A DNA stretch of 64,000 bases from the NCBI RefSeq assembly GCF_000763385.1, contig NZ_JQFA01000002.1, forward strand, positions 186,001 through 250,000, in the 5' to 3' direction. Origin of the DNA: Leptolyngbya sp. KIOST-1 (GTDB lineage Bacteria > Cyanobacteriota > Cyanobacteriia > Phormidesmidales > Phormidesmidaceae). Numbering within the stretch: position 1 is the first letter of the stretch; the number at the start of each line of letters is the position of its first letter. Shown here in pieces: positions 30,194-59,180 of the stretch. The notes below the pieces were generated by a model that did no database searches, was not told where the DNA came from, and saw only the letters and a program-made list of their open reading frames with translations. Made by a program: the position numbers and the translations under genes.

Positions 30194-30397
30194 GTGGGTA
30201 GGTGGGTAGGCGGGTAGTCGGGTTGGTGGGTAGGCGGGTGGATGGGTGAGGGGGATTTTTCTATCTCAGCGGTTTCCGCCTCATCCACGCTCCCACTCCT
30301 CCACCCTTCCACTCGCCCACCCTCCCACTCCCCTACCCATACACCCTCCCACTCGCCCACCCTCTCCCTCCCCACCCCCTACCCTCCCACTCCCCCC
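30187..30397. repeat. Octamer-armed hairpin element between exbB and exbD (reverse orientation)
   Basis: The left arm is G-rich octamers of the TAG type (GGTGGGTA) at 30187-30250. The core GATTTTTCTATCTCAGCGGT lies at about 30254-30273. The right arm (CTCCCACTC, TCGCCCAC) runs to the exbD ATG. Read on the minus strand, it has the same polarity as the copies inside genes. A frame beginning at 30242 runs through the core and right arm into exbD, so an N-terminal extension of ExbD is possible but unlikely. Confidence 0.85.
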
Positions 30398-30802: not shown

Positions 30803-30986
30803 GGGTGGATGGGTAGGTGAGTGGATGGGTGGATGGGTAGGTGGGTAGGTGGGTAGGTGGGTAGGTGGGTAGGTGGGTAGGTGGGTAGGTGGGTAAGATT
30901 TTTCTGTGTCAGCGGTTTTGGCCCCATCCACTCGCCCACTCGCTCACTCGCCCACTCGCTCACCCTCCCACTCGCCCACCCTCCCA
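30803..30986. repeat. Octamer-armed hairpin element after exbD (reverse orientation)
   Basis: Directly after the exbD stop come about eleven GGTGGGTA/GGTGGATG octamers (30803-30894). Then comes the core AAGATTTTTCTGTGTCAGCG (30896-30915), and C-rich octamers (TCGCCCAC, TCGCTCAC, CTCCCACTC) to 30986. Most left-arm units contain TAG, so this orientation would stop translation. Confidence 0.88.
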
Positions 30987-31089
30987 GCGCATTTAATCCG
31001 TCTAGCGGGCAAAAAACTCCGGCTTAGAGCCCTTTGGGTAACGTTCAGCCGCTAGGCTGGGGGCTAGTTTTTTGCCAGATGGTTTAGCT

Positions 31090-32988
31090 ATGGGTAGATC
31101 TGGGCAGGGGTATCGAAAGCTGTTGGCCACCTACCTCAGGCCCCAGGGGGGACGGGTAGTGGGGTTGAGCATCACCCTACTGATGGGCATTGGGTTGCAG
31201 TTGCTCAACCCACAGATATTGCGATATTTCATTGACACGGCGGTGGCTGGGGGAGCACCGCGATCGCTGGTGTTGGCAGCAGGGGCGTTCGTTGCAATCG
31301 CTTTTGTCCAGCAGGGGTTTGCGATCGCCACCACCTACTTCAGTGAAACCATCGCCTGGCGTGCCACCAACACCCTACGCCTGGATCTGACCCGCCACGC
31401 CCTGGGCCTTGACCTGGCCTTTCACAAAGCCCACACTCCCGGGGAACTGGTGGAGCGGGTCGATGGCGATGTGGATGCTCTGTCGCGGTTTTTCTCGCAG
31501 TTTGTATTGCAGGTACTGGGCAACGGCCTGTTAGTCCTGGGGGTGCTAACAATTTTGTGGTTCGAAGACTGGCGGGCCGGACTGAGTCTGAGCCTGTTTA
31601 CCCTGGTAGCCTTTGGGGTGCTGGGCGGCCTCCAATCCCTGGCGGTTGGCCCCTGGCGCACCTACCGCCAGATCAGCGCCGAATTCTACGGCTTTGTGGC
31701 CGAGCACCTCAGCGGCCTGGAAGACATCCGTGCCAATGGGGCCGTCGGCTATGTGATGGACAGGTTCTACAAACTGCTGCGCCGCTGGCTGCGAGCCTTT
31801 CACCAGGCCCGCTTCACCAGCACCCTGCTGTGGGGCAGCACCGTGGGGCTGTTTACCCTGGGCAACGCGATCGCCCTGGCCATCGGTGCCTACCTCTGGA
31901 GCCAGGCTGCCATCACCATCGGTACCGTCTACCTGCTCTTTTACTACGCCACCCTGCTGCAAGACCCCATCGAACGCATCCGCGAAGAACTAGAGCAGCT
32001 CCAGCAGGCCCAGGCCAGCATCCAACGGATTCAGGATTTACTGGGCCACCAGCCTCGGGTGAGCCCAGGCGGCCAAGGGATTTTACCGACGGGAGCCCTA
32101 TCGGTGAAGTTTGAGGGGGTGTGGTTTGGGTACGGGGAGTGGGAGAGTGGGAGGGTGGGAGGGTGGGAGAGTGGGAGGGTGGATGAGGCGGAAACCGCTG
32201 AAATAGAAAAATCCCCCTCACCCACCAACCCGCCTACCCTCCCACCTATCCACCCATCCACCCATCCACCCATCCACCCACCTACCCGCCAACCCGTCAA
32301 CCCACCTACCCTCCACAACCTCACTCTCCACCTCTCCCCTGGGCAAACCCTTGGTCTACTGGGCCGCACGGGCAGCGGCAAAAGTACCCTGGCGCGGTTG
32401 CTGCTGCGGCTGTACGACATTCAGCGGGGGCAGATTTACCTGGGGGGCGTGGATATTGCCCAGGTGTCGCTGCGGGAACTGCCGCACCAGGTGGGGTTTG
32501 TCACCCAGGATGTGCAGCTGTTTCAGACCAATGTGCGGAATAACCTGACGTTTTTTGATGGGCACATCTCGGATGAAGCGATTCTGCAAACCCTGGATGA
32601 CCTGGGCCTGATGCCCTGGCTAGAGGGGCTGCCAGCGGGCCTGGATACGGAGCTGGGGGCAGATAGCGGCGGGCTGTCGGCGGGGCAGGCACAACTGCTG
32701 GCCTTTGCACGGGTGTTTCTCAAAGATCCGGGGCTGGTGGTGCTAGATGAAGCCTCGTCGCGGTTGGACTCACTGACGGAGCAGTTGATCGAGCGGGCAG
32801 TGGATCGACTTTTGGTGAACCGCACCGGGATTATCATCGCCCACCGACTCAAAACCGTGGAGCGGGCCGACCAGATCCTGATTTTGGAGCAGGGGCAGGT
32901 GGCGGAGTACGGCGATCGCACCACTCTCTTAACCGATCCCAACTCACAGTTTTCGCGCTTGCTCAAGGTTGGAGCGATGCCCGATTAA
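31090..32988 (+). CDS. ABC exporter (membrane domain plus ATPase) with in-frame repeat insert
   Basis: A half-size exporter of 632 residues from the ATG at 31090 (a TTG six codons earlier is less likely). Residues 20-310 are six membrane helices of the ABC type I fold. The ATPase has an aromatic A-loop (GVWFGYG), Walker A GRTGSGKST near 424, signature LSAGQ (variant of LSGGQ), Walker B VVLDEASSRLD and H-loop IIAHRL. Residues about 348-408 are an octamer-repeat insert (GEWESGRV... then Pro-rich) placed between the A-loop and the strand before Walker A. Without it the length is about 572, normal for the family. Position in the iron locus suggests siderophore or peptide export (inference). Confidence 0.88.
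   Translation: MGRSGQGYRKLLATYLRPQGGRVVGLSITLLMGIGLQLLNPQILRYFIDTAVAGGAPRSLVLAAGAFVAIAFVQQGFAIATTYFSETIAWRATNTLRLDLTRHALGLDLAFHKAHTPGELVERVDGDVDALSRFFSQFVLQVLGNGLLVLGVLTILWFEDWRAGLSLSLFTLVAFGVLGGLQSLAVGPWRTYRQISAEFYGFVAEHLSGLEDIRANGAVGYVMDRFYKLLRRWLRAFHQARFTSTLLWGSTVGLFTLGNAIALAIGAYLWSQAAITIGTVYLLFYYATLLQDPIERIREELEQLQQAQASIQRIQDLLGHQPRVSPGGQGILPTGALSVKFEGVWFGYGEWESGRVGGWESGRVDEAETAEIEKSPSPTNPPTLPPIHPSTHPPIHPPTRQPVNPPTLHNLTLHLSPGQTLGLLGRTGSGKSTLARLLLRLYDIQRGQIYLGGVDIAQVSLRELPHQVGFVTQDVQLFQTNVRNNLTFFDGHISDEAILQTLDDLGLMPWLEGLPAGLDTELGADSGGLSAGQAQLLAFARVFLKDPGLVVLDEASSRLDSLTEQLIERAVDRLLVNRTGIIIAHRLKTVERADQILILEQGQVAEYGDRTTLLTDPNSQFSRLLKVGAMPD
32134..32316 (+). repeat. Octamer-armed element inside the first ABC exporter gene (forward)
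   Basis: The G-rich arm GTGGGAGA/GTGGGAGG runs 32134-32186, the core GAAACCGCTGAAATAGAAAA lies at 32191-32210, and the C-rich arm (CCACCCAT, CTACCCGC) runs to about 32316. The total is close to 61 codons and stays in frame. It translates as 8-residue repeats (VGGWESGR), TAEIEKS at the core, then PPIHPSTHPP-type sequence. Confidence 0.9.
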
Positions 32989-34139: not shown

Positions 34140-34256
34140 CTAAACTGTTCCGTGCCGAGGCAGACGCGATCGCACCCTTCGTCCTAGAGTTCCTATACCT
34201 AGATGAAATCTATTCGCATCTAGTGCAGTGAACGCTTAAATGGTGGTGTGACGGCA

Positions 34257-36884
34257 ATGACTCAGCAGCGGATGGGATGGGGTTTACTAACTGGCGTAGT
34301 GGGGGCGATTGCAATTCTGGCTCAACCGCTGATAGCCCAGGCGAGCATTGAGAATGTAGATGAGTGGATGACTGGGCAAGTGGATGAGTCGGAACAACCC
34401 ATGCTCCCATCCACCCAGCTACCTAGCCACCCAGCTACCCGTCCACCCATCCACCCTGCAACCACCGTAGACGAGTGGATGACCCAAATCGCTCAGGCCA
34501 CGGTGCAAATTACCGGGGTGCGGCTGGAGAACACTGAGGCGGGCTTGCAGGTGGTGTTGGAAACGGCGGCGGGGGAGCTGGCGGCACCTACCACGCGCGC
34601 GATCGGTAACGCCCTGATTGCTGAGTTTCCTAACGCGGTGCTGGCTCTGCCCGAGGGCGGCGAGTTTTTCCAGGCCAACCCCGCCGAGGGCATTGCCCTG
34701 GTGACGGCGACAAACTTATCCGATAACACGGTGCAGGTGGCCATCACCGGAGCAGATGCTGCCCCCACCGCAGCGGTGAGTGCTGGGGCTGAAGGATTTA
34801 TCTTAAGCCTAGTGCCGGGTATCGCCACCGCCGCTGCCGAGGATGAAGCAATTCAGGTGATGGTGACGGGAGCACAAGACGAAGGCTATAACCCTTCGCA
34901 GGCCAGCACTGCGACTCGCACTGATACGCCTCTGAGGGATGTTCCAGCTTCTGTTTCCGTGATTCCTCGCCAGGTGCTTGAAGATCAGGGGGCGGTGCGG
35001 CTCGACGAAGCCCTGCGCAATGTCAGCGGGGTCACCTTTAGCAACTCCATAGGCAATCGCGCCCAAAACTTCCTCATTCGCGGGTTCGGGGCTACGCAGT
35101 TTAGGAATGGGCTGAGGGAAGATGCGGGTGGCGGTGGCACATTTAACACTCGAACTGCCCAAGAGACCGCCAATATTGAGCGCATTGAGGTACTCCGAGG
35201 CCCTGCTTCGGTTTTATTTGGCCAGGGTGAACCCGGCGGTATCATCAATCTGGTCTCTAAAGCGCCCCTTGATACGCCATTTTATGAGGTGAGCTTTAGG
35301 GGGGGAAGTTTTGACTTCTACCGACCGACGCTAGATTTTTCCGGCCCACTCACTGCCGATGGCGCAGTAGCCTACCGGTTAAATGTAGCCTACGAAAATG
35401 CGGGCAGCTTTCGAGACTTTGTTGACTCCAGACGCTACTTTATTGCGCCAACAATCGCCTGGACGATTAGCCCCACCACATCGCTGAACCTGGAGGTTTC
35501 GTATTTGCAGGATAGGCGCTCGCCTGATATTGGGTTAATCGTGCTGAATGGAGACAATCGCCCCGCAGACCTACCCTTTAGTCGCACCTTGGCTGACCCC
35601 AATAACTCCACCCAGCTCTACGATGAAACTCGGGCCACCCTTGTTTTTGATCATGCTTTTGCTGACAACCTGTCTATCCGCAGTGCCTTTCGCTACACCA
35701 CCAGCTTTGAGTCTTTTCGAGACGGGCTATCGTTCATCAGAAACCTGCGCAATGACAACCGCACTGTTGAGTTGGGAGTTGCCTTTGGCGATCAGTTTTT
35801 CGAAACCTATACGTTTCAAAACGATTTGATTTGGGAATTTAACACCGGAACAGTGGAGCATCGGCTACTGCTGGGTTTGGAACTCTCTAACAACAATGTG
35901 CGATTCAGCTCCCAAGCACCTGACAATCAACAAAATATTACTGGCGGTCTGCTGGATATTTTTAACCCAGACTATAGCGCCATTTCCTATACAGGTGGCT
36001 TTCAGGTGTTTGCAGAGGGAGATTTCCAAGACCGACGAACTTTTGGCCTCTACTTGCAAGACCAAATTACCCTGTCTGATAATTTCAAGCTTTTAGTAGG
36101 CGGTAGGTTAGACACGGTTAACTCTAATCAACTCTTCCAGGTTGACGACTTTGCTACTAGCCAGCAAGATACCGCCTTTTCTCCCCGTGCCGGTCTAGTT
36201 TACCAACCCAATGAAATGCTGGCGCTCTATGCCAGCTACTCCCGCTCCTTTGTGCCCCAGGGGGGGCGCAGCGCCACCAACACGCCGTTTGAGCCAACTC
36301 GGGGCACCCAGTACGAAGTTGGTGCCAAGGCCGACTTTTTAGAAGGTCGCCTTTCGGCCACTTTGGCGGCTTACAATATCACCCGCAGCAACCTGACCAC
36401 CCCTGACCCCAACAATCCGAATTTTTCAATTCAGGTGGGGGAGCAGCGGAGTCGTGGGATTGACCTCAATGTGGTGGGCGAAATTTTGCCGGGTTGGGAT
36501 GTGATTGCCTCCTATGGGTTGATTGACGCCACCATTACCCGCGACAATCGCTTTGATGTAGGCAACCGGCTGATCAATGTTCCTCAGCATTCTGCTAGTC
36601 TATGGACGACCTACACTTTGCAAACGGGAGATCTCGCCGGGTTGGGCTTTGGTGTTGGAGCCTTTTTAGTCGGTGAGCGCACCGGGGATCTGGCTAACAC
36701 CTTTACGCTGCCGGGTTACACTCGTTTCGATGCCGCTGTTTACTACGAGCGCGATCGCTTCCGGGTTGGCCTAAATTTTAAGAACCTGTTTAATGCCCAA
36801 TACTTTGCGGGGTCGCAGGGGCGGCTATCGGTGCTGCCTGGCGCTCCCTTTGAAGTACAGGGTACTCTCTCATGGCAGTTTTAG
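34257..36884 (+). CDS. TonB-dependent siderophore receptor with N-terminal AMIN domain, first copy
   Basis: An outer-membrane receptor of 875 residues from ATG 34257 (a GTG three codons earlier is possible). Order: signal peptide (GLLTGVVGAIAILAQPLIAQA), a low-complexity stretch at about 34-75 with repeat-derived PSTQLPSHPATRPP, an AMIN domain (VQITGVRLEN to about 190), plug domain (TDTPLRDVPASVSVIPRQVL, then RNFLIRGFG-like), and a 22-strand barrel ending GTLSWQF. AMIN domains bind peptidoglycan and are typical of cyanobacterial receptors. The ligand is a ferric siderophore by family. A 17-bp direct repeat flanks the low-complexity stretch. Confidence 0.93.
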   Translation: MTQQRMGWGLLTGVVGAIAILAQPLIAQASIENVDEWMTGQVDESEQPMLPSTQLPSHPATRPPIHPATTVDEWMTQIAQATVQITGVRLENTEAGLQVVLETAAGELAAPTTRAIGNALIAEFPNAVLALPEGGEFFQANPAEGIALVTATNLSDNTVQVAITGADAAPTAAVSAGAEGFILSLVPGIATAAAEDEAIQVMVTGAQDEGYNPSQASTATRTDTPLRDVPASVSVIPRQVLEDQGAVRLDEALRNVSGVTFSNSIGNRAQNFLIRGFGATQFRNGLREDAGGGGTFNTRTAQETANIERIEVLRGPASVLFGQGEPGGIINLVSKAPLDTPFYEVSFRGGSFDFYRPTLDFSGPLTADGAVAYRLNVAYENAGSFRDFVDSRRYFIAPTIAWTISPTTSLNLEVSYLQDRRSPDIGLIVLNGDNRPADLPFSRTLADPNNSTQLYDETRATLVFDHAFADNLSIRSAFRYTTSFESFRDGLSFIRNLRNDNRTVELGVAFGDQFFETYTFQNDLIWEFNTGTVEHRLLLGLELSNNNVRFSSQAPDNQQNITGGLLDIFNPDYSAISYTGGFQVFAEGDFQDRRTFGLYLQDQITLSDNFKLLVGGRLDTVNSNQLFQVDDFATSQQDTAFSPRAGLVYQPNEMLALYASYSRSFVPQGGRSATNTPFEPTRGTQYEVGAKADFLEGRLSATLAAYNITRSNLTTPDPNNPNFSIQVGEQRSRGIDLNVVGEILPGWDVIASYGLIDATITRDNRFDVGNRLINVPQHSASLWTTYTLQTGDLAGLGFGVGAFLVGERTGDLANTFTLPGYTRFDAAVYYERDRFRVGLNFKNLFNAQYFAGSQGRLSVLPGAPFEVQGTLSWQF
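34356..34483 (+). repeat. Decayed octamer element flanked by 17-bp direct repeats in the first receptor gene
   Basis: GTAGATGAGTGGATGAC (34356-34372) and GTAGACGAGTGGATGAC (34467-34483) differ at one base and are 111 bases (37 codons) apart. Between them lies a C-rich arm (CCATCCACCCAG, GTCCACCCATCC) and a remnant of the core's GATGAG-CGGAA edge. Both repeats encode VDEWMT. This looks like an eroded, in-frame insertion. Confidence 0.6.
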
Positions 36885-37886: not shown

Positions 37887-38867
37887 ATGAACGCTCCCTT
37901 TTGCGCCGAACAATCGCGTCAGTCTGGCCTTGATATTGCTGGCACCGCCTCTGAACACAGGCTCTACGTGGCGATCGCCTGCCCGCCCCCCTGGGAGCGC
38001 AACGATATGGCATCCAAGGGCATTCCTACCGTCCTGCGCGAGCTGAGCGAAGAAATCTACGACGACTACGATCGCTACCAAACCCGCTTCCTGCTGATTC
38101 ACAACGACCAGCTCAGCCAAGAAAACCTCACCCGTGTGCTGGTATTTCGCAAACCCTCCGGCTTTGCCACCGCCTATGAAAAGCAAGAATTTCACCTGGG
38201 GGACATCCGCGATGTGGCACCTCTGGTGCGCCAGGTGGTGATGGGCGAACCGCTCAGCGCCACCCCAGTCGATCTGCCCAGCCGCGACATTTTAGTCTGC
38301 ACCCACGGCAGCCGCGATCGCTGCTGCTCCCGCTTTGGCACACCCATCTACCATCAGGCCCGCAAACTGGTGACAGAGTTGGGGTTGCAAAATATCCGCA
38401 TCTGGCAGGCCAGCCACATCGGCGGCCACCGCATGGCCCCCACCGCCATCGACTTCCCCACCGCCCGCTACTACGGCTACCTGGATGAAACTTCTCTGCG
38501 GTCAGTGCTTACCCACAGCGGCGACATTCGCAGCCTAGAGACCATCTATCGCGGCTGGGGTCTGCTACCCTGGGCCGCCCAGGTGCTGGAAAAGCAACTG
38601 CTGCTCACCCACGGCTGGGACTGGCTGACCTACTCAGCGGCTGCCCAAGTGCTAGAGCACGACGCAGACGAAACCTTTAACCGGGTTGAAATCACCTACT
38701 GCCCCCAATCAGGCCAGCAGCAAACCGTTCAGGCCGACATTGTGGCCGATACAGCTCGCACCGTCTACCTGAATGGGTCCTGTGCCAGCGATAAGACGTC
38801 GGCTATTATGCCGTACCGAGTCAAGAATGTGGTGCGGTGCCGGGGGGAGATGGCGGGTAGTAGGTAA
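37887..38867 (+). CDS. Sucrase/ferredoxin-like protein, first copy
   Basis: A 326-residue cytoplasmic protein of the sucrase/ferredoxin-like family (Apd1-like). The thioredoxin-like [2Fe-2S] domain carries Cys in CTHGSRDRCC and the His pair in SHIGGHRMAP. Yeast Apd1 binds its cluster through two Cys and two His, and the same spacing is present here. It follows the FecB-like gene by seven bases, so it belongs to the uptake operon; reduction of the ferric siderophore or of released iron is a reasonable role (inference). Its paralogue at 56773 has a repeat insert where this protein has a short loop (VTELGLQN), which makes it the uninterrupted reference. Confidence 0.85.
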   Translation: MNAPFCAEQSRQSGLDIAGTASEHRLYVAIACPPPWERNDMASKGIPTVLRELSEEIYDDYDRYQTRFLLIHNDQLSQENLTRVLVFRKPSGFATAYEKQEFHLGDIRDVAPLVRQVVMGEPLSATPVDLPSRDILVCTHGSRDRCCSRFGTPIYHQARKLVTELGLQNIRIWQASHIGGHRMAPTAIDFPTARYYGYLDETSLRSVLTHSGDIRSLETIYRGWGLLPWAAQVLEKQLLLTHGWDWLTYSAAAQVLEHDADETFNRVEITYCPQSGQQQTVQADIVADTARTVYLNGSCASDKTSAIMPYRVKNVVRCRGEMAGSR

Positions 38868-40220: not shown

Positions 40221-41027
40221 TCAAGCATTCGGCAGATTATCTGGGTCGAGGCCGAGGGAGCGCAAATAATCGGCCAGTCGCTCCGCCCGCTGCTGTTCCT
40301 GCTCCGCCCGCCGCTGCTCCTGCTCAGCTCGCCGCTGCTCCTGCTCCGCCCGCCGCTGCTCCTGCTCAGCCCGCCGCTGTTCCTGCTCAGCCCGCCGCTG
40401 TTCCTGCTCAGCTCGCTCGGCGGGGGTCAAGTAGCGATCGCCCCGCTGGTCAAACCAACCCAGGGCTTCCCGGTCCATCGGGTCAAACGGGAGCACACAA
40501 CGCCCAATCCCTAACCCGATCTCCGGCATCCAACAGGGTTCGCCCATTTGCAATTGGTAGGTGCCCTCCACCAGCTTGTAGACCTCAAAGGGTAAATGGC
40601 GATCGCGCTGCCAGAAGCTGGGATTGTAAACCACGTAGTACAGCACCCCCAGGCGGGCGTAGATATCTAGCTTGGTGTCGTACTCGCCGCCGGGGGTTTG
40701 TGACACCATTTCCAGGGCTAAAATCGGTGGTGTGTAATTTTCTTCCCAGGTGACGTAGCTGCTGCGCGACTTGCCCCCCTTGCGACGTTCAACCCCCAAG
40801 CTCAAAAAGCCGTCGGGCACCACCGGTACCCGTGGGTTGACCCCGGTGGTATGGTAAACGCCCATATCCACGGCAAAAAACCAGTCCTGGCGGTCTTTCC
40901 ACAGGTATTCCAACACGAAGAGCAAGACATTGGGCAGCCAGTTTTGATCTTCGTTATCCACGGGCGTATCGTCAGAACAGGGGAGTTCGTCGCTAGTCGG
41001 AAGTTGGGTGAGGTCAATGTCGAACAT
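40221..41027 (-). CDS. Uma2 family endonuclease-like protein with a heptad-repeat tail
   Basis: From the ATG at 41027 the protein is 268 residues. Residues 30-200 are the Uma2 (PD-(D/E)XK-like) domain: VPDGFLSLGVERRK gives the first acidic residue, and LALEMVSQTPGGEYDTKLDIYARLG carries the Glu and Lys. This large family expands strongly in cyanobacteria; its members are predicted nucleases with unknown biological role. The C-terminus is seven near-identical AEQEQRR heptads forming a predicted coiled coil, then RLADYLRSLGLDPDNLP. It lies opposite in direction to the surrounding iron genes, so it is an independent unit. Confidence 0.87.
   Translation of the reverse strand: MFDIDLTQLPTSDELPCSDDTPVDNEDQNWLPNVLLFVLEYLWKDRQDWFFAVDMGVYHTTGVNPRVPVVPDGFLSLGVERRKGGKSRSSYVTWEENYTPPILALEMVSQTPGGEYDTKLDIYARLGVLYYVVYNPSFWQRDRHLPFEVYKLVEGTYQLQMGEPCWMPEIGLGIGRCVLPFDPMDREALGWFDQRGDRYLTPAERAEQEQRRAEQEQRRAEQEQRRAEQEQRRAEQEQRRAEQEQQRAERLADYLRSLGLDPDNLPNA
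40281..40416. repeat. 21-bp tandem repeat coding the Uma2 heptads
   Basis: About six and a half copies of a 21-base unit encode AEQEQRR on the minus strand. The copies differ mainly by synonymous changes (TCC/TCA, CGC/CTC contexts). Such tails are common on Uma2 proteins in cyanobacteria. Confidence 0.8.
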
Positions 41028-41169
41028 GGTCACCACCTGGGGCTCTGCCAGCGTTTTGCGTAGCCCCATTGTAGCGCCGGGGCAAGCCGACCCAAAAACT
41101 CCCAGATCTGATCGCAAAAACTCCGCCTAGGGATCATCCTTCGCTTTAGCGGCTCTCGCCGACCTGTAT

Positions 41170-46355: not shown

Positions 46356-46461
46356 GGGGAGTGGGAGGGTGGGAGAGTGGATGGGTAGATGGGTGGGGGG
46401 GTGGATGGGTGGATGGGTGGATGGGTGGGAGGGTGGATGGGTAGGAGAGTGGGTGAGTGGG
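46356..46461. repeat. G-rich octamer array next to the four-helix-bundle pseudogene
   Basis: GTGGGAGG, GTGGGAGA and GTGGATGG octamers run to the stop codon of the pseudogene on the other strand. Both AG-type and TAG-type units are present. No core was found. Confidence 0.7.
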
Positions 46462-46845
46462 TTATTGGATTGTCCAGGGGGAAGCGGTTTTGATCATGTT
46501 GACGAGTTGCCCTAAGACTTGGTCGTAGTTGCGATAGAGGTCTCTACCGGCTTCAGAAGCTAAATATTGTCATCTAACCGCAAACTCTAACCAAATTTGG
46601 GTTTCTGTCGCTTCAGCCTGGCAGTCACTGATTTTTGCCACAAAAGCAGCTTGGTATCGCCGTTTTCGCCAGGCTTCTCCCAAATTTGCACACACTGATC
46701 GAGACGACCTGCGAATCTGGTCAATCAAGCAATATCTCTCCTCAACCGGAAATCGCTTAGATACCTCAAAAATCTCCATAGCTGTGGCAAAAGCCACCTG
46801 ATAAACCTCCAAATCCCGATAACTCCTAACCAATTGCCTAGCCAT
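46462..46845 (-). pseudogene. Four-helix bundle (S23-type) protein gene with an in-frame stop
   Basis: Reading from the ATG at 46845, the protein begins QLVRSYRDLEVYQVAFATAM and has RSSRSVCANLGEAWRKRRY, the signature of the four-helix-bundle family related to 23S rRNA intervening-sequence proteins. A TGA at 46572-46570 interrupts it after WLEFAVR. The same frame continues with the expected last helix (YLASEAGRDLYRNYDQVLGQ) and ends at TAA 46464-46462 after SPWTIQ. One base change would restore it, so this is a young nonsense mutation or a truncated protein lacking its last helix. Confidence 0.8.
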
Positions 46846-46879
46846 CCTTCTACCCTTTCCTTACCATCTCTCTCCAAAT

Positions 46880-46965
46880 AATTCCCATCCACCCCCTACC
46901 CATCCACCCATCCACCCCCTACCCATCCACCCATCCACCCCCTACCCATCCACCCATCCACCCCC
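46880..46965. repeat. C-rich array immediately before the second ABC exporter
   Basis: CCATCCAC octamers and CCCCTACC units repeat in blocks of about 23 bases and run directly to the ATG at 46966. A ribosome-binding site is not visible, so the array forms the entire leader. No core or G-rich arm adjoins it. Confidence 0.7.
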
Positions 46966-49083
46966 ATGCCCCCCATCCACCACCTACTCTGGCAACTCAT
47001 CCGCTACGCCCAGCGGCTCTACTGGGTCGATACCCTGCTGTGGCTGTTCATTCTAGGTCTGCCGGCGGTGCCGGGGCTGATCATTCGCGAGTTTTTTGAT
47101 ACTCTCACTGGCGAATCGCGCTTTGATAGCTCGCCCTGGGTGTGGATTGGGCTACTGCTGGCGGTGGGGCTGGCGCGGGTGGTGGCGATTTTTGTGGGGC
47201 GCATTACCAAAACCCAGCATCGGTTTTTAATCAGCGGGCTGGTGCGCCATAACTTGCTCTACGAATTACTCAAGCGGCCTGGGGCGGAACTAGCGACCGG
47301 GGGGGTGGGGCAGCATAACGCCTCGCCGGGGGAAATTCTCAGCTACTTCCGCGACGATGCGGCCCAGATTGAGGATGTGGTGGTGGGCACCAATGAAATC
47401 TTCGGGGCCGGAGTGTTTGCCATGGGCTCCGTGGCGCTGCTGCTGATCGTCAACCCAACCATGACCCTACTCGTGTTTTTGCCGTTGTGCGCGATCGCCC
47501 TCCTCGCCCACCAGGCCGAACACCGCCTTAAACGCTACCGTCGCGCCAGCCGCCAGGCCACCCAGCGGGTCACCGGACTGATTGGCGAACTGTTTACGGC
47601 GGTGCAGGCGGTCAAAGTCGCCGGGGCAGAAGCCCAAATGCTGGCGGAACTGCGGGAACGGTGCGATCGCCGCCGCGATCTGATGGTGCGTGACCAGGTG
47701 TTCACCGCCATCCTCAACTCCGCCTTTGAAAACGTCGTCAGCCTCGGCACCGGGTTAATTTTGCTGGTTGCCGCCCAGAGCCTCGGTGCCCAGGGCAGCC
47801 TCACCGTGGGCGACTTTGCCCTGTTCGTCTACTACCTCTCCTTCGTTACCTACTTCCTCGCGTTTCTCGGCGGCTTTATGGCCGTCACTAAGCAGAGCGA
47901 AGTTTCCTTTGAGCGGATGGGGGGATTGGTGGGGGAGTGGGAGGGTGGGAGGGTGGGAGAGTGGGAGAGTGGGAGGGTGGGAGAGTGGGAGGGTGAGAGC
48001 GTTGATGGGGCCACAACCGCCGAAGGAGACCAATCCCATCCACCCATTCATCCATCTACCCGCCCACCCGCCTACCCGCCTACCCATCTACCCATCCACC
48101 CATTCACCCATCCACCCGCCTACCCCCTCACCCATCCCCACCCCCTCTACCTCAAACCCCTCCTTGGCCCAGAACCAACCTTACCGGCGATCGCCTCCGA
48201 CTCCCCGCCCGCCCCCCTCCACGAGCTACGGGTGGAGGGGTTGACCTACCGCTATGCTGGTGGGGGCGGTATCAGTGACATTAGCTTTACCCTCACCCCA
48301 GGTAGCCTGACGGTGATTACGGGCCAGGTGGGGGCGGGGAAAACTACTCTGTTGCGGGTACTGCTAGGGCTATTGCCCCGGCAGGCTGGGGCGCTTTACT
48401 GGAATGGTCAGCCCATTGCCGATCCGGCGAATTTTTTGGTGCCGCCTCGGGCTGCCTATACGCCGCAGATTCCCCAACTCTTCAGTGCCTCGCTGCGGGA
48501 CAATCTGCTGCTGGGGTTGGGGGACACAGTTGGCCCAGAGCAGCTTGAGCGGGCGATTGCCGCCGCCGTCTTCGACCAGGATCTGGCCACCCTGCCCGAG
48601 GGTCTCGATACCCGAGTGGGCACGCGCGGCTTTCGCCTCTCTGGCGGGCAAAAGCAGCGGGCCGCGGCGGCCCGCATGCTGCTGCGTCAGCCCGCCCTGC
48701 TGGTGTTCGATGACCTCAGCAGCGCCCTGGATGTGGAAACCGAGCAGCGGCTGTGGGAGGGGTTGTTTGGGGGTGGGAGAGTGGGAGGGTGGGAGGGTGG
48801 GAGGGTAGGAGAGTGGGAGAGTGGGAGGGTGGGAGGGTGGGAGGGTAGGAGAGTGGGAGGGTGGGAGAGTGGGAGAGTTGAGGGGGCGAAAACCGCTGAA
48901 ATAGAAAAATCCCATCCACCCATCCACCCACCAACCCGCCTACCCACCAACCCGCCTACCCACCAACCCGCCTACCCACCAACCCATCCACCCACCTGCC
49001 TCGTCGTCTCCCACCGCCCTGCCGTCCTGCAGCGAGCCGATCAGGTTCTGTATCTCGACAATGGGCAGCTACACGTCCAGTAG
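46966..49083 (+). CDS. ABC exporter (membrane domain plus ATPase) with two in-frame repeat inserts
   Basis: The protein is 705 residues. Residues 10-310 form the membrane domain. Insert one (about 321-394) lies in the linker to the ATPase. The ATPase then has GQVGAGKTT (Walker A, near 453), LSGGQKQR, and LVFDDLSSALD where the usual catalytic Glu is Asp. Insert two (about 601-677) lies between the D-loop (SSALD) and the H-loop (VVSHRPAV). Both inserts are octamer elements translating as VGEWESGR repeats, TAEGDQS or TAEIEKS, then Pro-rich tracts. Without them the length would be near 555, normal for a half exporter. It is upstream of the FecCD permease genes; siderophore export is plausible. 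Confidence 0.85.
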   Translation: MPPIHHLLWQLIRYAQRLYWVDTLLWLFILGLPAVPGLIIREFFDTLTGESRFDSSPWVWIGLLLAVGLARVVAIFVGRITKTQHRFLISGLVRHNLLYELLKRPGAELATGGVGQHNASPGEILSYFRDDAAQIEDVVVGTNEIFGAGVFAMGSVALLLIVNPTMTLLVFLPLCAIALLAHQAEHRLKRYRRASRQATQRVTGLIGELFTAVQAVKVAGAEAQMLAELRERCDRRRDLMVRDQVFTAILNSAFENVVSLGTGLILLVAAQSLGAQGSLTVGDFALFVYYLSFVTYFLAFLGGFMAVTKQSEVSFERMGGLVGEWEGGRVGEWESGRVGEWEGESVDGATTAEGDQSHPPIHPSTRPPAYPPTHLPIHPFTHPPAYPLTHPHPLYLKPLLGPEPTLPAIASDSPPAPLHELRVEGLTYRYAGGGGISDISFTLTPGSLTVITGQVGAGKTTLLRVLLGLLPRQAGALYWNGQPIADPANFLVPPRAAYTPQIPQLFSASLRDNLLLGLGDTVGPEQLERAIAAAVFDQDLATLPEGLDTRVGTRGFRLSGGQKQRAAAARMLLRQPALLVFDDLSSALDVETEQRLWEGLFGGGRVGGWEGGRVGEWESGRVGGWEGRRVGGWESGRVEGAKTAEIEKSHPPIHPPTRLPTNPPTHQPAYPPTHPPTCLVVSHRPAVLQRADQVLYLDNGQLHVQ
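47928..48147 (+). repeat. Octamer-armed element, first copy inside the second ABC exporter gene (forward)
   Basis: The G-rich arm is at 47928-48010, the variant core ACAACCGCCGAAGGAGACCA at 48013-48032 and the C-rich arm to about 48147. It lies in the linker between membrane and ATPase domains and is in frame. Confidence 0.88.
48769..48998 (+). repeat. Octamer-armed element, second copy inside the second ABC exporter gene (forward)
   Basis: The G-rich arm is at 48769-48885, the core AAAACCGCTGAAATAGAAAA at 48889-48908 and the C-rich arm to about 48998. Two G-arm units contain TAG (near 48817 and 48846), but in both cases the TAG is out of frame. Confidence 0.9.
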
Positions 49084-49217: not shown

Positions 49218-50237
49218 GTGTCGGCGATCGCCCCATCTAAACATTCCGCTCCACCAGCGCTGCTGCTAACCATTGGGCTAGGGGTAGCCGGGCTGGTGCT
49301 GCTGATCTGTCTGCTGGTCAGCATTTTGCTGGGGGCGGCAGACATTGCCCCTGGCACCGTATGGCAGTCTATTTTTCAGTTCGATGGTTCCACCGAGCAT
49401 TTGATCATTCGCACGGTGCGGCTACCCCGCGCCATTCTGGCGGTGGTGGTGGGGGCGGCCCTGGCGGTGGCAGGAGCCATTACCCAGGGGCTCACCCGTA
49501 ACCCCCTGGCGGCCCCCGATATTTTAGGCATCAATGTGGGGGCGGCCCTGGCGATGGTGCTGGCGGTGTTTTTGCGGGGGGGCGGCGGCAGCTATGTGGG
49601 CTTTGCCTTTGCCGGGGCGGCGATCGCCGCTGTCACCGTCTACTGGCTGGGCTCCCTGGGTCGCAGCGGCCTGACGCCCCTGAAGCTGGTAATCGCTGGG
49701 GCGGCGCTCTCCTACCTGCTCAGCTCCCTGACCACGGGCATTCTCATCCTCAGCCAGCGCACCCTGGATGAGATCCGCTTCTGGCTGGCGGGGTCCCTGG
49801 CGGGGCAAGATATCGCCTCCATTCTGCCGGTGCTGCCCTACATTGCCGTAGGCCTGGTAGCCTCTTTGGCCCTGGGACGCCAGTTAACCCTGATGAGCCT
49901 GGGGGAAGATGTAGCCCAGGGTTTGGGCCTGCAAACGGCCTGGGTAAAGGTGGGATCTGCGATCGCCGTGGTTTTGCTGGCCGGTAGCGCCGTCGCCCTG
50001 GCCGGACCCATCGGCTTTGTGGGCCTGGTGGTACCCCACGTCGTCCGCTTTGCCGTCGGCGTCGACTACCGCTGGATTTTGCCCTACTCAATCATTTTTG
50101 GCGGCATTTTGCTCTCGGTCGCCGACACCGCCGCCCGCCTGGTGATCCGCCCCCAGGAGCTACCGGTGGGGATTATGACGGCAGTCATCGGGGCACCGTT
50201 CTTCATTTATTTGGCCAGGTCGAAGATTAAGCGGTGA
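49218..50237 (+). CDS. FecCD-family iron-siderophore ABC permease, first
   Basis: A 339-residue membrane protein with about ten helices, starting at GTG 49218. FecCD motifs: [60 protein letters not shown]-like and GLVVPHVVR. It forms half of the inner-membrane channel for ferric siderophores, probably together with the permease at 50559. No FecE-type ATPase follows; both must borrow one from elsewhere. The two permeases are separated by a long octamer repeat. Confidence 0.93.
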
Positions 50238-50558
50238 ACGGTGGACGGGTGGGAGAGTGGGAGAGTGGGAGAGTGGGAGAGTGGGAGGGTGGATGGGTGG
50301 GAGGGTGGATGAGTTAACAGGTTCATAACCGCCGAAAGAGATCAATCTCACTCATTCACCTACCTACCCATCCCTTCACCCACCTACTCATCCCTTCACC
50401 CACCTACTCATCCCTTCACCCGCCTACTCATCCCTTCACCCACCTACTCATCCCTTCACCCGCCTACCCGCCTACCCGCCTACTCGCCTACTCGCCCACT
50501 CACCTATCCCCCTACCCATCCACCCATCTACTCATCCACCCCCCTACCCGCCCACCCC
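50238..50558. repeat. Octamer-armed hairpin element between the two permease genes (forward)
   Basis: The G-rich arm GTGGGAGA runs from 50247 to about 50310, the core ATAACCGCCGAAAGAGATCA is at 50326-50345, and a long C-rich arm (CACCCACCTACTCATCCCTT repeated) extends to the ATG at 50559. The core belongs to the variant type seen at 48013. This is the longest C-rich arm in the window. Confidence 0.88.
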
Positions 50559-51602
50559 ATGACCCCCAAACCCTGGCTCTCCCTCCGTCCTCGCCAACTC
50601 CCCCTCTCCTTCCGGGTCGATCGCCGGGTGCCTGGGGTGCTGGCAGCGCTGGCGGCGATCGCCCTCCTTTCCCTGATCTTCAACGTCAGCCAGGGAGAAT
50701 ATCCGGTGCCGCCGCTGGAGGTGGTTAAAACCATTCTGGGATTTCCGGCCAGCCCCGACTATGCCTTTGTGGTGAATACCCTGCGCCTACCTCGGGCGCT
50801 GGTGGCGCTGGTGGTGGGCATGGGTCTGGCGGTGGCGGGGACAATTTTGCAGGGGCTGACCCGCAATCCCCTGGCGGCACCGGAGATCATCGGCATTAAC
50901 TCGGGGGCGAGTCTGGTGGCGGTGGCGATGATTGTGTTGTTTCCGGGGTTGCCAGTGGGGTGGCTGCCAGCGGCGGCGTTTTTGGGTGGTCTGGGGGCGG
51001 CGATCGCCATTTACCTGCTGGCCTGGAATGGGGGGAGTTCGCCGGTTCGCCTGATTCTGGTGGGCATTGGCCTGACGTCGCTCACCGGGGCCTTCACCAG
51101 CCTGATGATCACCTTTGGCAATATCTATAGCGTCAGCCAGGCGCTGGTGTGGCTGACGGGCAGTGTCTACGGACGCAGTTGGGAGCACCTGTGGCCGCTG
51201 CTGCCCTGGCTGTTGTTTTTTCTGCCGCTGACAATGGTGCTGGCGCGGGATCTGGATACTTTGAATTTGGGTGATAACCTGGCCCAGGGGTTGGGGAGCC
51301 GGGTGGAATGGACCCGCAGCCTACTGTTGCTCTGCACCGTGGCCCTGGCTGGGGCTTCGGTGGCGACCGCTGGCACCATCGGCTTTGTGGGGCTGATGGC
51401 TCCGCACCTGGGGCGACAGCTGGTGGGGCCATCCCACGCGGGCCTGGTGCCGGTGGCGGCGTTGACAGGGGCCTGCATTGTGGAGCTGGCGGACCTGGTG
51501 GGGCGACTGGCCTTTGCCCCCATCGAGCTGCCCTGCGGGGTGATTACAGCGGTGATTGGCGCGCCCTACTTTCTGTGGCTGCTGTACCGCGATGGTCGAT
51601 GA
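50559..51602 (+). CDS. FecCD-family iron-siderophore ABC permease, second
   Basis: The protein is 347 residues and homologous to the upstream permease. It has [40 protein letters not shown] and GFVGLMAPHLGRQLVGPSHA, the FecCD pattern of the second subunit. The ATG at 50559 directly follows the repeat arm. It ends at 51602, just before a perfect stem (51639), so the permease pair is the last part of this unit. The ATPase is missing here as noted. Confidence 0.93.
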   Translation: MTPKPWLSLRPRQLPLSFRVDRRVPGVLAALAAIALLSLIFNVSQGEYPVPPLEVVKTILGFPASPDYAFVVNTLRLPRALVALVVGMGLAVAGTILQGLTRNPLAAPEIIGINSGASLVAVAMIVLFPGLPVGWLPAAAFLGGLGAAIAIYLLAWNGGSSPVRLILVGIGLTSLTGAFTSLMITFGNIYSVSQALVWLTGSVYGRSWEHLWPLLPWLLFFLPLTMVLARDLDTLNLGDNLAQGLGSRVEWTRSLLLLCTVALAGASVATAGTIGFVGLMAPHLGRQLVGPSHAGLVPVAALTGACIVELADLVGRLAFAPIELPCGVITAVIGAPYFLWLLYRDGR

Positions 51603-55702: not shown

Positions 55703-56776
55703 ATGAGACTTATCGCAGCGATCAAACCATTCTCATTGGCGGTGTTTACGGCTGCATGTGCCGTGGCCTGTCAAGGGATTGCCGACATACCAGGGGCTGA
55801 GCGTCCGGCTGGTCAACCCTCCGCCCCATCGGCAGACTGCCGCACCGTTGTCCACAGCCTGGGGGAGACCGAAATATGTGGGCAGCCCCAGCGGGTGGTG
55901 GTGCTGGGGCCGTACCTGCTGGAGCAGGTGCTGGCGCTGGGGGCACAGCCCGCCGGGTACGGCGACCACATGGTTCTGCACCAGGGCGACTACACCGACC
56001 CGGCCCGGCAAATTCCCTACCTGGGGGACCGGGTGACCACCCAGCCGGTCAATGTGGGGCTGGCCTACCAGCCCTCGATGGAGGCGATTTTGGGCGTCCA
56101 GCCCGATTTGATTTTGAGCCCCGACTACAATGCCGGGCAATACGCCACCCTCTCAGGAATTGCCCCAACCCTGGTGTTTGACATGACCGGCGGTCAAACC
56201 CATCTGCAGGAAATTGGCCAGGCGCTGAACCAGGGCGATCGCGCCCAAAGCTTGATCGCCGCCACAGAAAACCGCGTTAAAGCGGCCCAGGCGGAGTTTG
56301 CCGCCGTCGTGGCTGAGCATCCCAACGTGCTGATGCTGACCTCTGGAGAGGGCCAGACCTTTAACCTGATCAGCCACAGCAACAGCTTTTGCGGCGCGTT
56401 GGTAAACGATCTGGGGTTTCAATTGATCTACCCCTCAGGCCTTCAGGAGGCCGAGCTGCGCACCCCGGCAGCGGTGTCGCTGGAGGCGTTACCCGAACTC
56501 AACGGGGCAGATTCGATTATTCTGCTGGGCTTCAACTGGGATAGCCCGATGCAGTCAACGGCGGGCGCTGAGTTTACCAACCACCAGCTCAATCGCCTCA
56601 AGCAGGACTGGGCAAACAATGCGATCGCCCAGTCCCTCAATGCCACCCAAGCCGGACGCGTCTATTTCATCCCCGCCTACCTGTGCCTGGGCTTCCCCGG
56701 CCCCATCGGCACCGAGCTGTACCTGAACGAGCTTAAAACCCAGCTTCTCGCCCCCTCAGAACCGCACAATCCATGA
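55703..56776 (+). CDS. Iron-siderophore ABC substrate-binding lipoprotein (FecB-like), third copy
   Basis: A 357-residue lipoprotein with a signal peptide ending at a lipobox (AVAC). It shares CRTVVHSLGETEICGQPQRV, GDRVTTQPVNVGLAYQPSME and the closing RVYFIPAYLCLGFPGPIGTE with the first copy. The binding fold is complete. Its stop TGA overlaps the ATG of the sucrase/ferredoxin-like gene (ATGA), showing translational coupling. It serves the third module. Confidence 0.9.
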   Translation: MRLIAAIKPFSLAVFTAACAVACQGIADIPGAERPAGQPSAPSADCRTVVHSLGETEICGQPQRVVVLGPYLLEQVLALGAQPAGYGDHMVLHQGDYTDPARQIPYLGDRVTTQPVNVGLAYQPSMEAILGVQPDLILSPDYNAGQYATLSGIAPTLVFDMTGGQTHLQEIGQALNQGDRAQSLIAATENRVKAAQAEFAAVVAEHPNVLMLTSGEGQTFNLISHSNSFCGALVNDLGFQLIYPSGLQEAELRTPAAVSLEALPELNGADSIILLGFNWDSPMQSTAGAEFTNHQLNRLKQDWANNAIAQSLNATQAGRVYFIPAYLCLGFPGPIGTELYLNELKTQLLAPSEPHNP

Positions 56777-57909
56777 CTATTTCATCGTTGGCCGCCGACT
56801 GTCAGCTTTGCTCAGTGATCTCCAAATCCAATGGTGAAGACCCGATTGGTAGCGCCAAGTTCGCCGACGGCTGGCTGGTGATGGAGCTGCCCCTCCCCTG
56901 GACAGAAGACCGCTTCCACAGCGACCCGCTCTTGCAGCCGATTCACGATTTATTTCACGCCCTCTACGACCAGGGCATACAGGTCGCCCCAATGGCGATC
57001 GCCCCCGACCGCGAGTATTCCGTTCCTAACCTGTCCCATGTTTTCTACTATCGCCGCCCCAACAACGCCTTTGCCCAGTTTGAAAAACAGACCTTCTTGC
57101 TGCCTCCAGCTCAAATCATTGGCTTGATTAACGCCCTGCTGAGCCAGCCTGAAAACTTGCATCGTTTCTTGGCCTACCAACAGCCCACGGACAGCATTCG
57201 CGACCTGATGGTCTGTACTCACGGCAATATCGATATCGCCTGTGCCCGCCTTGGGCAACCCATCTATCGGCAGCTCAGGGAAACCTATGTGGGAGAGTGG
57301 GCGGGTGGGAGAGTGGATGGGTGGGAGAGTGGGAGAGTGGATGATTCCAAAACCGCTGAAATAGAAAAACCCCGCCAACCCACCTACCCATCCACCCATC
57401 TACCCATCCACCCATCTACCCATCCACCCACCTACCCATCCACTCCTCTTCGCGTCTGGCGCTGTTCCCACTTTGGCGGCCACCAGTTTGCCCCGACGCT
57501 AATTGACTTCCCCACCGGGCAGGTCTGGGGACACCTTGAACCTCAAATCCTGGCGGGGCTGATTAACCGAGACTGTCCTGTGACCGAGCTCCGTCCGTTT
57601 TATCGAGGCTGGTCGGGATTAAACCAGTACGCCCAGATCGTGGAGCGCGAGATCTGGATGCAGCGGGGCTGGGATTGGCTGCACTACCGCAAAGTGGCCC
57701 AGGTGCTGGCCCAAGACCCTGACCATGAGCCGTGGGATGCCGATTGGGCCGAGGTGCGGTTGGAATTTGTGCCCCCCGATGGGCAGAAAGCAGGAGCCTA
57801 CGAGGCCAGAGTTGAGGTCTGGGGTTCTGTAATGACGGCTCACAATTCTGGTGCAGAGCCTGTCTCAGTGAAGCAATATCGGGTCAGCCGTTTGGTGCAG
57901 GTCGCTTAG
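56773..57909 (+). CDS. Sucrase/ferredoxin-like protein, second copy, with in-frame repeat insert
   Basis: The protein is 378 residues. The family core is a thioredoxin-like [2Fe-2S] domain with Cys in CTHGNIDIAC (C-x8-C) and the His pair in SHFGGHQFAP. Between them, residues 172-225 are an octamer-element insert (VGEWAGGRVDGW..., TAEIEKP, then YPSTHLPIHP). Without it the protein would be about 325 residues, one shorter than the paralogue at 37887 (326), which has a short loop at that point. Overlap with the FecB-like gene (ATGA) and the MFS gene 14 bases downstream place it in one operon. The same ferric-siderophore redox role is inferred; whether it folds with the insert is not known. Confidence 0.87.
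   Translation: MTISSLAADCQLCSVISKSNGEDPIGSAKFADGWLVMELPLPWTEDRFHSDPLLQPIHDLFHALYDQGIQVAPMAIAPDREYSVPNLSHVFYYRRPNNAFAQFEKQTFLLPPAQIIGLINALLSQPENLHRFLAYQQPTDSIRDLMVCTHGNIDIACARLGQPIYRQLRETYVGEWAGGRVDGWESGRVDDSKTAEIEKPRQPTYPSTHLPIHPSTHPPTYPSTPLRVWRCSHFGGHQFAPTLIDFPTGQVWGHLEPQILAGLINRDCPVTELRPFYRGWSGLNQYAQIVEREIWMQRGWDWLHYRKVAQVLAQDPDHEPWDADWAEVRLEFVPPDGQKAGAYEARVEVWGSVMTAHNSGAEPVSVKQYRVSRLVQVA
57289..57446 (+). repeat. Octamer-armed element inside the second sucrase/ferredoxin-like gene (forward)
   Basis: The G-rich arm (GTGGGAGA, GTGGATGG) is at 57289-57344, the core AAAACCGCTGAAATAGAAAA at 57349-57368, and the C-rich arm (CTACCCAT, CCACCCAT) to about 57446. The insert is in frame. Confidence 0.9.
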
Positions 57910-57923
57910 GTTCTGGGCCAGCC

Positions 57924-59180
57924 ATGCGAACATTCATCACTCTCTGGCTGGGGCAGTTGGCCTCGTCTATCGGTAGCGCCATGACCTACTTTGCCCTCAC
58001 CCTGTGGGTGTGGGAACGCACCCAATCGGCCACGGCGATCGCCCTGATTCTGGTGTTCTACCAGCTGCCGCAGCTGGCGATCGCGCTGGTGTCAGGGCTG
58101 CTGGTCGATCGCGTCTCCCGCAAGCGCCTGCTAATTTTCAGCGACATTGGCTCAGCGGTTTGCACTATCTCGGTGGGCATTCTGGCCGCCCTGCACCTGC
58201 TCCAGGTCTGGCATATCTACGCGATCGCGGCCATCATTGGCTGCTTTGGCAATGTGCAGTCCCTCACCTACGCCACCCTGATTCCGCTGATCGTGCCTCC
58301 GGCCCATCATAGCCGCGCCAGCAGCCTGGCGGCGATGATCGACTTTGGGGCGGCCATTCTCGCTCCGGCCCTGGCGGGGTTGCTCTACCCCACCGTCGGC
58401 CTGCTGGGAATTACGGCGGTAGATATGACCAGCTTTGCGATCGCCCTGGTGACGCTGCTGTTGGTGCCCATCCCCGCCGCCCAGAACCCAGAGGAACCGC
58501 CCCCTACCGAGAAAGCCACCCTCTGGCACCGGGTCACCTTTGGCTTTCGCTACATTGCGGCCCAGCCCAGCCTGGTGGCCATGGTGGTGGCCCTGTCGGC
58601 TTTCACCTTTCTCCACCAGATCGGTGAAGCCCTGTACCAGCCCATGATTTTGGCCAGAACCGGCGGCGACGCCCAGGTGCTGGGGCTGGTGGTGGCGACC
58701 TCGGGGCTGGGGGGCGTGGTGGGGGCGATCGCCTTTAGCCTCTGGAATGGCTTTCAGCGGCGGGAAGTCGGTATCCTCGTTGGATTTATGGGTACCGGGC
58801 TGAGCAAACTGCTGCTGGGTCTGGGGTCATTCCCCAGCCTGTGGGCGGTGGCGCGGTTTGGCAGCTCGTTCCACAACCCGCTGATTTTGAGTTCGTATAT
58901 GGCGGTGTGGTACGCCAGGGTGCCCCCGGAGCGCCAGGGGCGGGTGCTGGCCGCCGACTACCTGATCGGCACCGTGGCGATGCTGCTGGCAAATCTGGCC
59001 GCCGGACCACTGGCCGATGGGGTGTTTGAACCCTGGATGCTGGGTTCGAGCAATCGCCTGTCGGTAATTTTTGGCGCCGGCCCCGGCAGCGGCATGGCGC
59101 TGCTTCAGGTCGTGCTGGCCCTCGGTATACTGACTCTCGGCCTCGGGAGGCTGGGCTGGGAGCGGATTAAGAATCCGTAG
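57924..59180 (+). CDS. MFS transporter of the uptake operon
   Basis: A 418-residue carrier with twelve predicted helices. It begins RTFITLWLGQLASSIGSAMT and has the loop motif GLLVDRVSRKRLL, like the EntS/macrolide-efflux branch of MFS. Located 14 bases behind the sucrase/ferredoxin-like gene and in the same direction, it may export siderophore or recycled siderophore from the cytoplasm (inference from context). No other gene follows it in this unit. Confidence 0.85.
   Translation: MRTFITLWLGQLASSIGSAMTYFALTLWVWERTQSATAIALILVFYQLPQLAIALVSGLLVDRVSRKRLLIFSDIGSAVCTISVGILAALHLLQVWHIYAIAAIIGCFGNVQSLTYATLIPLIVPPAHHSRASSLAAMIDFGAAILAPALAGLLYPTVGLLGITAVDMTSFAIALVTLLLVPIPAAQNPEEPPPTEKATLWHRVTFGFRYIAAQPSLVAMVVALSAFTFLHQIGEALYQPMILARTGGDAQVLGLVVATSGLGGVVGAIAFSLWNGFQRREVGILVGFMGTGLSKLLLGLGSFPSLWAVARFGSSFHNPLILSSYMAVWYARVPPERQGRVLAADYLIGTVAMLLANLAAGPLADGVFEPWMLGSSNRLSVIFGAGPGSGMALLQVVLALGILTLGLGRLGWERIKNP

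Follow-up and report, generated by a model that had tools for sequence, protein, structure and literature searches.

How a cluster-binding protein comes to hold a long repeat-coded segment between its metal ligands, and what that repeat is, are questions raised by a gene in the siderophore cluster of Leptolyngbya sp. KIOST-1, within a stretch of 64,000 nucleotides analysed here as a whole (the window). The gene (56773-57909, plus strand; E 8.3e-28) encodes a protein of 378 residues that scores 98.2 bits against the Suc_Fer-like profile PF06999 (curated cut-off 34.9) and is a member of that family; its start overlaps the stop of the upstream binding-protein ORF by four bases. Sequence and family alignment identify two ligand pairs, C148-x8-C157 (57214-57243, plus strand) and H233-x3-H237 (57469-57483, plus strand), which constitute an Apd1/Aim32-type motif with an exact spacing that we take to be that of Apd1. 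The genome contains two PF06999 matches, both inside the window, the other being a paralogue with a short loop (37887-38867, plus strand) assigned by profile match and alignment. A sequence search of solved structures with the 378-residue protein gave no match at E ≤ 1. Neighbouring genes encode a PF01497 periplasmic binding protein, TonB receptors, a FecCD permease and an MFS transporter according to Pfam. The most likely role of the PF06999 protein is that of a bis-histidinyl [2Fe-2S] electron carrier in this siderophore cluster, and it may function in siderophore iron release; it is presumably made and holds its cluster. The window also contains a different kind of coding repeat, a 21-nt tandem repeat of 6.5 copies (40280-40416) within the minus-strand ORF 40221-41117.

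The insert comprises residues 173-225 and is encoded in frame by repeat DNA at 57289-57447 (plus strand). A sequence-only reading of the window had described this order of C-x8-C, 53 repeat-coded residues and H-x3-H, and had placed the start of the insert correctly and its end one base short, at 57446. It had also located the short loop of the paralogue (VTELGLQN) at the place that alignment confirms, where the Cys-to-His spacing is 29 residues. Removal of the insert leaves 325 residues (378 minus 53) against 326 in the paralogue, and the two proteins had on this basis been offered as an internal before/after pair. The arithmetic is right, but the near-equality means little because the paralogue is about 30% identical, and the two do not form a real pair. 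The orthologue in genus-mate G013 and the short-loop relatives are better suited to the comparison. The G013 protein (331 residues, 91% identical to the window protein) is nearer than the paralogue yet keeps a 21-nt remnant: at the identical left junction stands GTGGGAGAGTGGGAGAGTAGG, 21 bases of G-arm type that encode seven residues, with neither spacer nor C arm. G013 also lacks the Leu codon before RVWRCSH, a residue that hardly varies across the family and that the window protein has. The simplest reading of these sequences is that G013 would carry the deletion remnant of an older insertion, a preference for loss in G013 over gain in the window that turns on one missing Leu codon in one gene pair. 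Unfilled loops in G054 and G063 have four residues at the insert site; the net gain is therefore 49 codons, a multiple of three. No empty site at the nucleotide level was near enough to look for a target duplication, which together with fixed terminal inverted repeats would mark a MITE; G013 itself retains part of the arm.

Loop length was compared across 109 aligned relatives (80 loci, taken as the best among 546, plus 29 from further genomes), rows that are not all independent, several representing one genome present twice. Of the 109, 107 have the complete set of four ligands; the two incomplete rows are a fragment in G021 (L014) and a protein that ends at a contig edge (L129). Cys-to-His spacing is 24-33 residues in 104 of these 107 relatives, 52, 55 and 55 in three rows, and 75 in the window protein. 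The three long rows represent two distinct proteins, L016 (52) and the identical L013 and L104 (55), in which the insert site is occupied by a long low-complexity loop of different sequence. The earlier reading had held that natural long loops of unrelated sequence at this place in other family members would count against it, and to the extent of these two proteins such loops exist. Because two other proteins have long low-complexity loops there, the insert site is a place open to length change. Between R143 and Q288, the intervals separating alignment anchors are of fixed length except Y172-R227 and, in one row, H254-R278. Y172-R227 measures 3-34 residues in the 107 relatives (commonest 8) and 54 in the window protein; judged by alignment, the insert occupies the sole clearly length-tolerant interval of the cluster domain.

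The location of this interval in space was approached through predicted structures. An AlphaFold2 model of the 378-residue protein (47 sequences) has a mean pLDDT of 86, with values below 50 at residues 1-7 and 178-220 and confident values over most of the rest; a helix (155-173) leads into the insert and a strand (226-231) leads out of it. For L061, a relative of 332 residues with a short loop, the model (46 sequences; pLDDT 90) shows essentially the same secondary-structure elements in the same order. Foldseek returned no match at E ≤ 0.001 for either model. VIA-align with residues 140-286 matched thioredoxin-like [2Fe-2S] ferredoxins and also listed NuoE-type domains, the best chains (1f37, 1m2a, 1m2d and 1m2b) reaching a Z of 6.5, below the level of a safe fold match, with an rmsd of 2.7-3.4 over 92-101 residues. 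If the thioredoxin-like fold is right, the insert probably lies at the pole opposite the Cys and His ligands, and residue counts would put some 20-28 Angstrom between loop and ligands. An insert placed next to the ligands, as had been proposed, is thus correct along the sequence and doubtful in space, given a model in which the loop connects the end of helix 155-173 to the start of strand 226-231.

The insert DNA consists of two octamer arrays, the first G-rich and the second C-rich, on either side of a spacer, all on the plus strand. The G arm (57289-57344) is an array of the octamers GTGGGAGA/GTGGATGG; the spacer, or core (57345-57371, 27 bases), contains AACCGCTGAAATAGAAAAA and is common to neighbouring copies; the C arm (57372-57443) is an array of ACCCATCC that is predicted to form a hairpin with the G arm. 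At up to two mismatches the octamer consensus has 162 matches in the window (overlaps included), whereas 100 shuffles gave a mean of 1.26 and a maximum of 4. Elements of this build, defined as a paired G-octamer array, spacer and C-octamer array, number at least 39 in the sampled parts of the genome (38 found by script and one, at 50241-50557, that the script missed). Rfam at gathering scores has no match in 56500-58200.

Folding of the insert transcript yields -75.4 kcal/mol (z -3.9), with none of 200 shuffles as stable, and 35 of 38 elements have a quadruplex motif on either strand. Together with the similar arrays that flank IVP genes (see below), these properties would suit an insert that acts at the RNA or DNA level, its hairpin or G-quadruplex slowing or halting ribosomes or inviting RNase III and in that way tuning or splitting the protein. 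Such action is unlikely given the state of the reading frame: just one of the six frames through the insert is open, it is the frame in use, and routine cleavage would make this openness needless, as it would the observed conservation of the C-terminal part between the KIOST-1 and G013 proteins. An open frame through an element is not automatic, as 15 of the 38 elements have none, 12 have one and 11 have two.

Elements occur both within and between genes. Four lie in frame within genes of the siderophore cluster, and a fifth, degenerate one is found in a TonB-receptor ORF. In addition to the PF06999 insert, the ABC transporter gene 31072-32988 has an element between its membrane and ATPase domains (32139-32309, plus strand), and the ABC transporter gene 46966-49083 has two, one in the membrane/ATPase linker (47929-48123, plus strand) and a second after the ATPase domain (48773-48999, plus strand). 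The degenerate element (34356-34462, plus strand; G arm of 16 nt) lies upstream of the AMIN domain in the TonB-receptor ORF (34248-36884), and could precede the true start of that ORF. Intergenic copies include the plus-strand element at 50241-50557, between the FecCD gene (49218-50237) and ORF 50559-51602, and two with reverse-oriented cores (minus strand) at 30190-30396 (paired part 30190-30360) and 30805-30986 (paired part 30805-30939). An in-gene element is also likely in a glycosyltransferase-9 ORF on contig C5, at approximately residues 326-375, before the better of two GT9 stretches (460-694). Several other candidate in-gene copies were discounted. In ORFs for a homocitrate-synthase-like protein, NifU and an oligopeptide ATPase, the element is upstream of the first domain according to Pfam and probably before the true start; at L164:6937, L166:10469, L179:2613 and L185:2755, the ORFs have no Pfam match at E ≤ 0.01. 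Octamer elements also cluster near nitrogen-fixation-type genes, namely NifU and homocitrate-synthase-like genes (L163, L164; G000:C2:588000-604500).

The spacers of these elements are alike mainly among neighbours. The spacer is read in a common frame (TAE...) in the three ABC transporter copies and the PF06999 copy, and of the 19 pairs with similar spacers 16 are no more than 30 kb apart, a distance within which 53 of all 630 pairs fall (the pairs are not independent of one another). At up to two mismatches, the core pattern has eight matches in 6.3 Mb, seven of them within the window, and other neighbourhoods mostly have other spacers; a fixed mobile element with a conserved core was rejected on these grounds. 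Spacer sharing among neighbours instead points to local copying, as far as sequence can tell. Of 26 genomes of the genus, 18 contain similar octamer arrays, a count to be read beside a backward control that matches in many of them, mostly with fewer matches.

The insert is probably a gene-less copy of this dispersed hairpin-array element, seated in the helix-strand loop of the PF06999 protein and tolerated there. Octamer arrays would grow by slippage and be copied locally, and an element would have been copied into, or have grown at, this loop. For a copy inside a gene, survival might require both a frame that remains open and an elastic loop in the protein; the insert may owe its persistence to a length that preserves the reading frame, to the absence of stops in that frame and to its position at a length-tolerant loop probably away from the cluster. 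The PF06999 protein would with its insert still fold and bind the cluster. At the protein level, the insert is most likely a tolerated disordered loop without a function of its own, and is presumably harmless to the protein.

Comparison of 324 flanking codons with G013 gives a dN of 0.043, a dS of 0.306 and a dN/dS of 0.14, a ratio that is the mean of both branches and cannot single out the window copy as still constrained; the flanks of the insert nonetheless appear to evolve under constraint. The orthologue in G021 (L014, on contig C12) is a fragment without its middle part, so the gene can be lost, and this loss, along with a stop in the PF05635 gene of the window, would fit a decaying gene in which the insert is damage to a pseudogene still open by chance. 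Decay is nevertheless very doubtful for a gene in which 378 codons are open, all ligands are kept, the flanks show the above dN/dS and the start overlaps the upstream gene. The original proposal of a long loop accepted within a cluster-binding domain stands insofar as the repeat DNA is in frame, the ligands are kept, the flank ratio is low and the predicted fold is essentially that of L061, and is modified as to the position of the loop.

Repeats at the same sites in relatives bear on whether the encoded peptide matters. Orthologues of the ABC transporter encoded from 46966 have, in their linker, octamer-type repeats in G000 (KIOST-1), G003, G011, G012, G018 and G020, a different inverted heptamer repeat (TTTTGAG ... 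CTCAAAA) in G004, G013 and G016, a mixture in G033, neither in G028 (where the sequence ends at a contig edge) and none in the outgroup G069. CTCAAAA arrays have 192 matches in G013 and two in KIOST-1, counts for which the control is uninformative, the pattern being near-identical when read backwards. Two intergenic octamer sites of the window likewise have other short repeats in G013. A tree of the transporters, with G028 left out, has bootstrap values of 22-76 and is too weak to show an in-place switch of repeat unit. In the C-terminal part of the same transporter, octamer-coded residues (48773-48999) in the window correspond to a different repeat-coded peptide in G018 and G020 (L144, L146). 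A loop that has gained a protein-level function, for example in docking a partner of the siderophore pathway, would accord with the two other proteins that have long low-complexity loops at the site and with the presence of in-frame elements in several genes of one cluster. Such a gain is very doubtful, however, for a loop that is predicted to be disordered, is represented in G013 by just a seven-residue remnant and resembles peptides in unrelated proteins, while the ABC linkers of some relatives carry unrelated repeat-coded peptides.

The origin of the arrays may be connected with a gene family found among them. The PF05635 (S23/IVP) family takes its name from the 23S rRNA intervening sequences, which are hairpins that split rRNA and can hold IVP genes; IVP proteins are similar to Avd, a protein of diversity-generating retroelements. 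A broken IVP gene lies within octamer arms ten kb from the insert. This gene-bearing form (46361-46961) consists of a G array (46361-46456), a four-helix-bundle gene (46504-46818, minus strand; PF05635, E 6e-26) with one in-frame TGA, and a C array (46892-46961). PF05635 genes are present in 42 of 76 genomes (its own and related ones), with 110 matches in total. Flanks were analysed at 31 loci, drawn from a sample of 37 (nine from G000 and G013 and 28 as the best per genome) after six with short flanks were dropped. Tandem arrays occupy both flanks at 20 of the 31, and at 24 the complementarity of left and right flanks exceeds the 95% level set by 400 random placements, counts in which related loci are not independent. 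The nine loci from which the idea came contribute six to each count, and the other 22 contribute 14 and 18. In the controls, arrays on both sides were found in four of 150 random placements, and flank pairs drawn from different loci exceeded the 95% level in 22 of 248. Among 168 control genes from repeat-rich genus loci, 15 have arrays in both flanks and nine have complementary flanks; the corresponding numbers for 77 control PF06999 genes (three of 80 dropped) are zero and two. Seven of the 31 PF05635 loci are not above the complementarity level, and some (L200, L210) match better in direct than in inverted orientation. Similar arrays are thus associated with S23/IVP genes.

The repeat units themselves vary by PF05635 locus, being AATTACG at L219 (G079), CGGGAGT at L211 (G023) and L210 (G059), and GTTATTG at L227 (G041). 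AATTACG arrays have 74 matches in G079 and none in seven other genomes, and in G079 they surround the PF05635 matches on C93 and C94, not that on C57; in G059, 15 of 16 CGGGAGT array matches are within 5 kb of the PF05635 gene on C134. In KIOST-1, two IVP genes are octamer-flanked and have 12 of the 39 octamer elements within 20 kb of them, while the four other IVP genes have none within that distance; random point pairs reach 12 in 5e-5 of 20,000 draws. With the window cluster set aside, the second octamer-flanked IVP gene shows a weaker excess (4 of 31 within 10 kb, P 0.006). Against a link with IVP, the octamer clusters at C2:550-607 kb (eight elements) and C5:37-50 kb (four elements) have no PF05635 match. 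It can be suggested, tentatively and with the balance of probability against it, that cyanobacterial S23/IVP genes represent the gene-bearing form of a class of elements that move or copy themselves and are bounded by inverted arrays, whose tandem repeat unit of 7-9 nt is specific to the lineage or locus. Gene-less hairpin arrays, including the PF06999 insert, would then be derivatives that spread mostly near an IVP gene, so that homologous protein linkers would acquire unrelated units across species. IVP proteins may help array copying, the least certain step of the proposed mechanism, and we know of no recombinase activity of PF05635 and of no tests of the S23/IVP role. The association could instead mean that IVP proteins bind such hairpins.

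These observations can be placed beside several known systems. In contrast to Apd1 and Aim32, which are bis-histidinyl [2Fe-2S] proteins, the protein described here is bacterial, belongs to PF06999 and to a siderophore cluster, and has a repeat-coded loop and a [2Fe-2S] cluster predicted from sequence. The filled, remnant and unfilled proteins form a natural set for testing how a cluster domain tolerates a disordered loop of 50 residues, a tolerance confined to one loop of that domain. Like 23S rRNA intervening sequences with IVP, the gene-bearing form has a PF05635 gene between complementary arms; the insert is not itself such a sequence, being gene-less and situated in a protein gene. Short inverted tandem arrays are common in these cyanobacterial genomes, and their link to the S23/IVP family makes array origin and spread testable. 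Among the titles and abstract openings listed by searches of open-licence PubMed Central, none dealt with cyanobacterial genes that contain inverted octamer arrays in frame, or with IVP genes between tandem arrays, a result that leaves absence from print unproven.

Rickettsia palindromic elements (RPEs) are families of fixed palindromic sequence. They are hairpin repeats of 105-146 bp that occur between genes and in frame in conserved protein genes, including 19 reading frames, and an RPE-bearing guanylate kinase stays active with altered affinity (PMC2229807). The hairpin repeat described here is likewise found between genes and in frame inside them. Unlike in RPEs, its arms consist of octamers in tandem, in arrays that vary in length, and its spacers differ by genome neighbourhood, being alike mostly locally (19 of 630 spacer pairs), which argues against an RPE-type fixed-sequence family. 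In Nostoc, the GGGGA(C/T)T heptamers form G-rich tandem arrays of a short unit with quadruplex potential, which are over-represented in non-coding and under-represented in coding regions (PMC4692102). The octamer arrays share the short unit and the quadruplex potential; they differ in standing as inverted pairs, several of them in frame in genes. In-frame hairpin repeats (Rickettsia) and short G-rich tandem arrays mainly outside genes (Nostoc) are already known. By analogy, the insert is best read as resembling an RPE in effect while being built differently.
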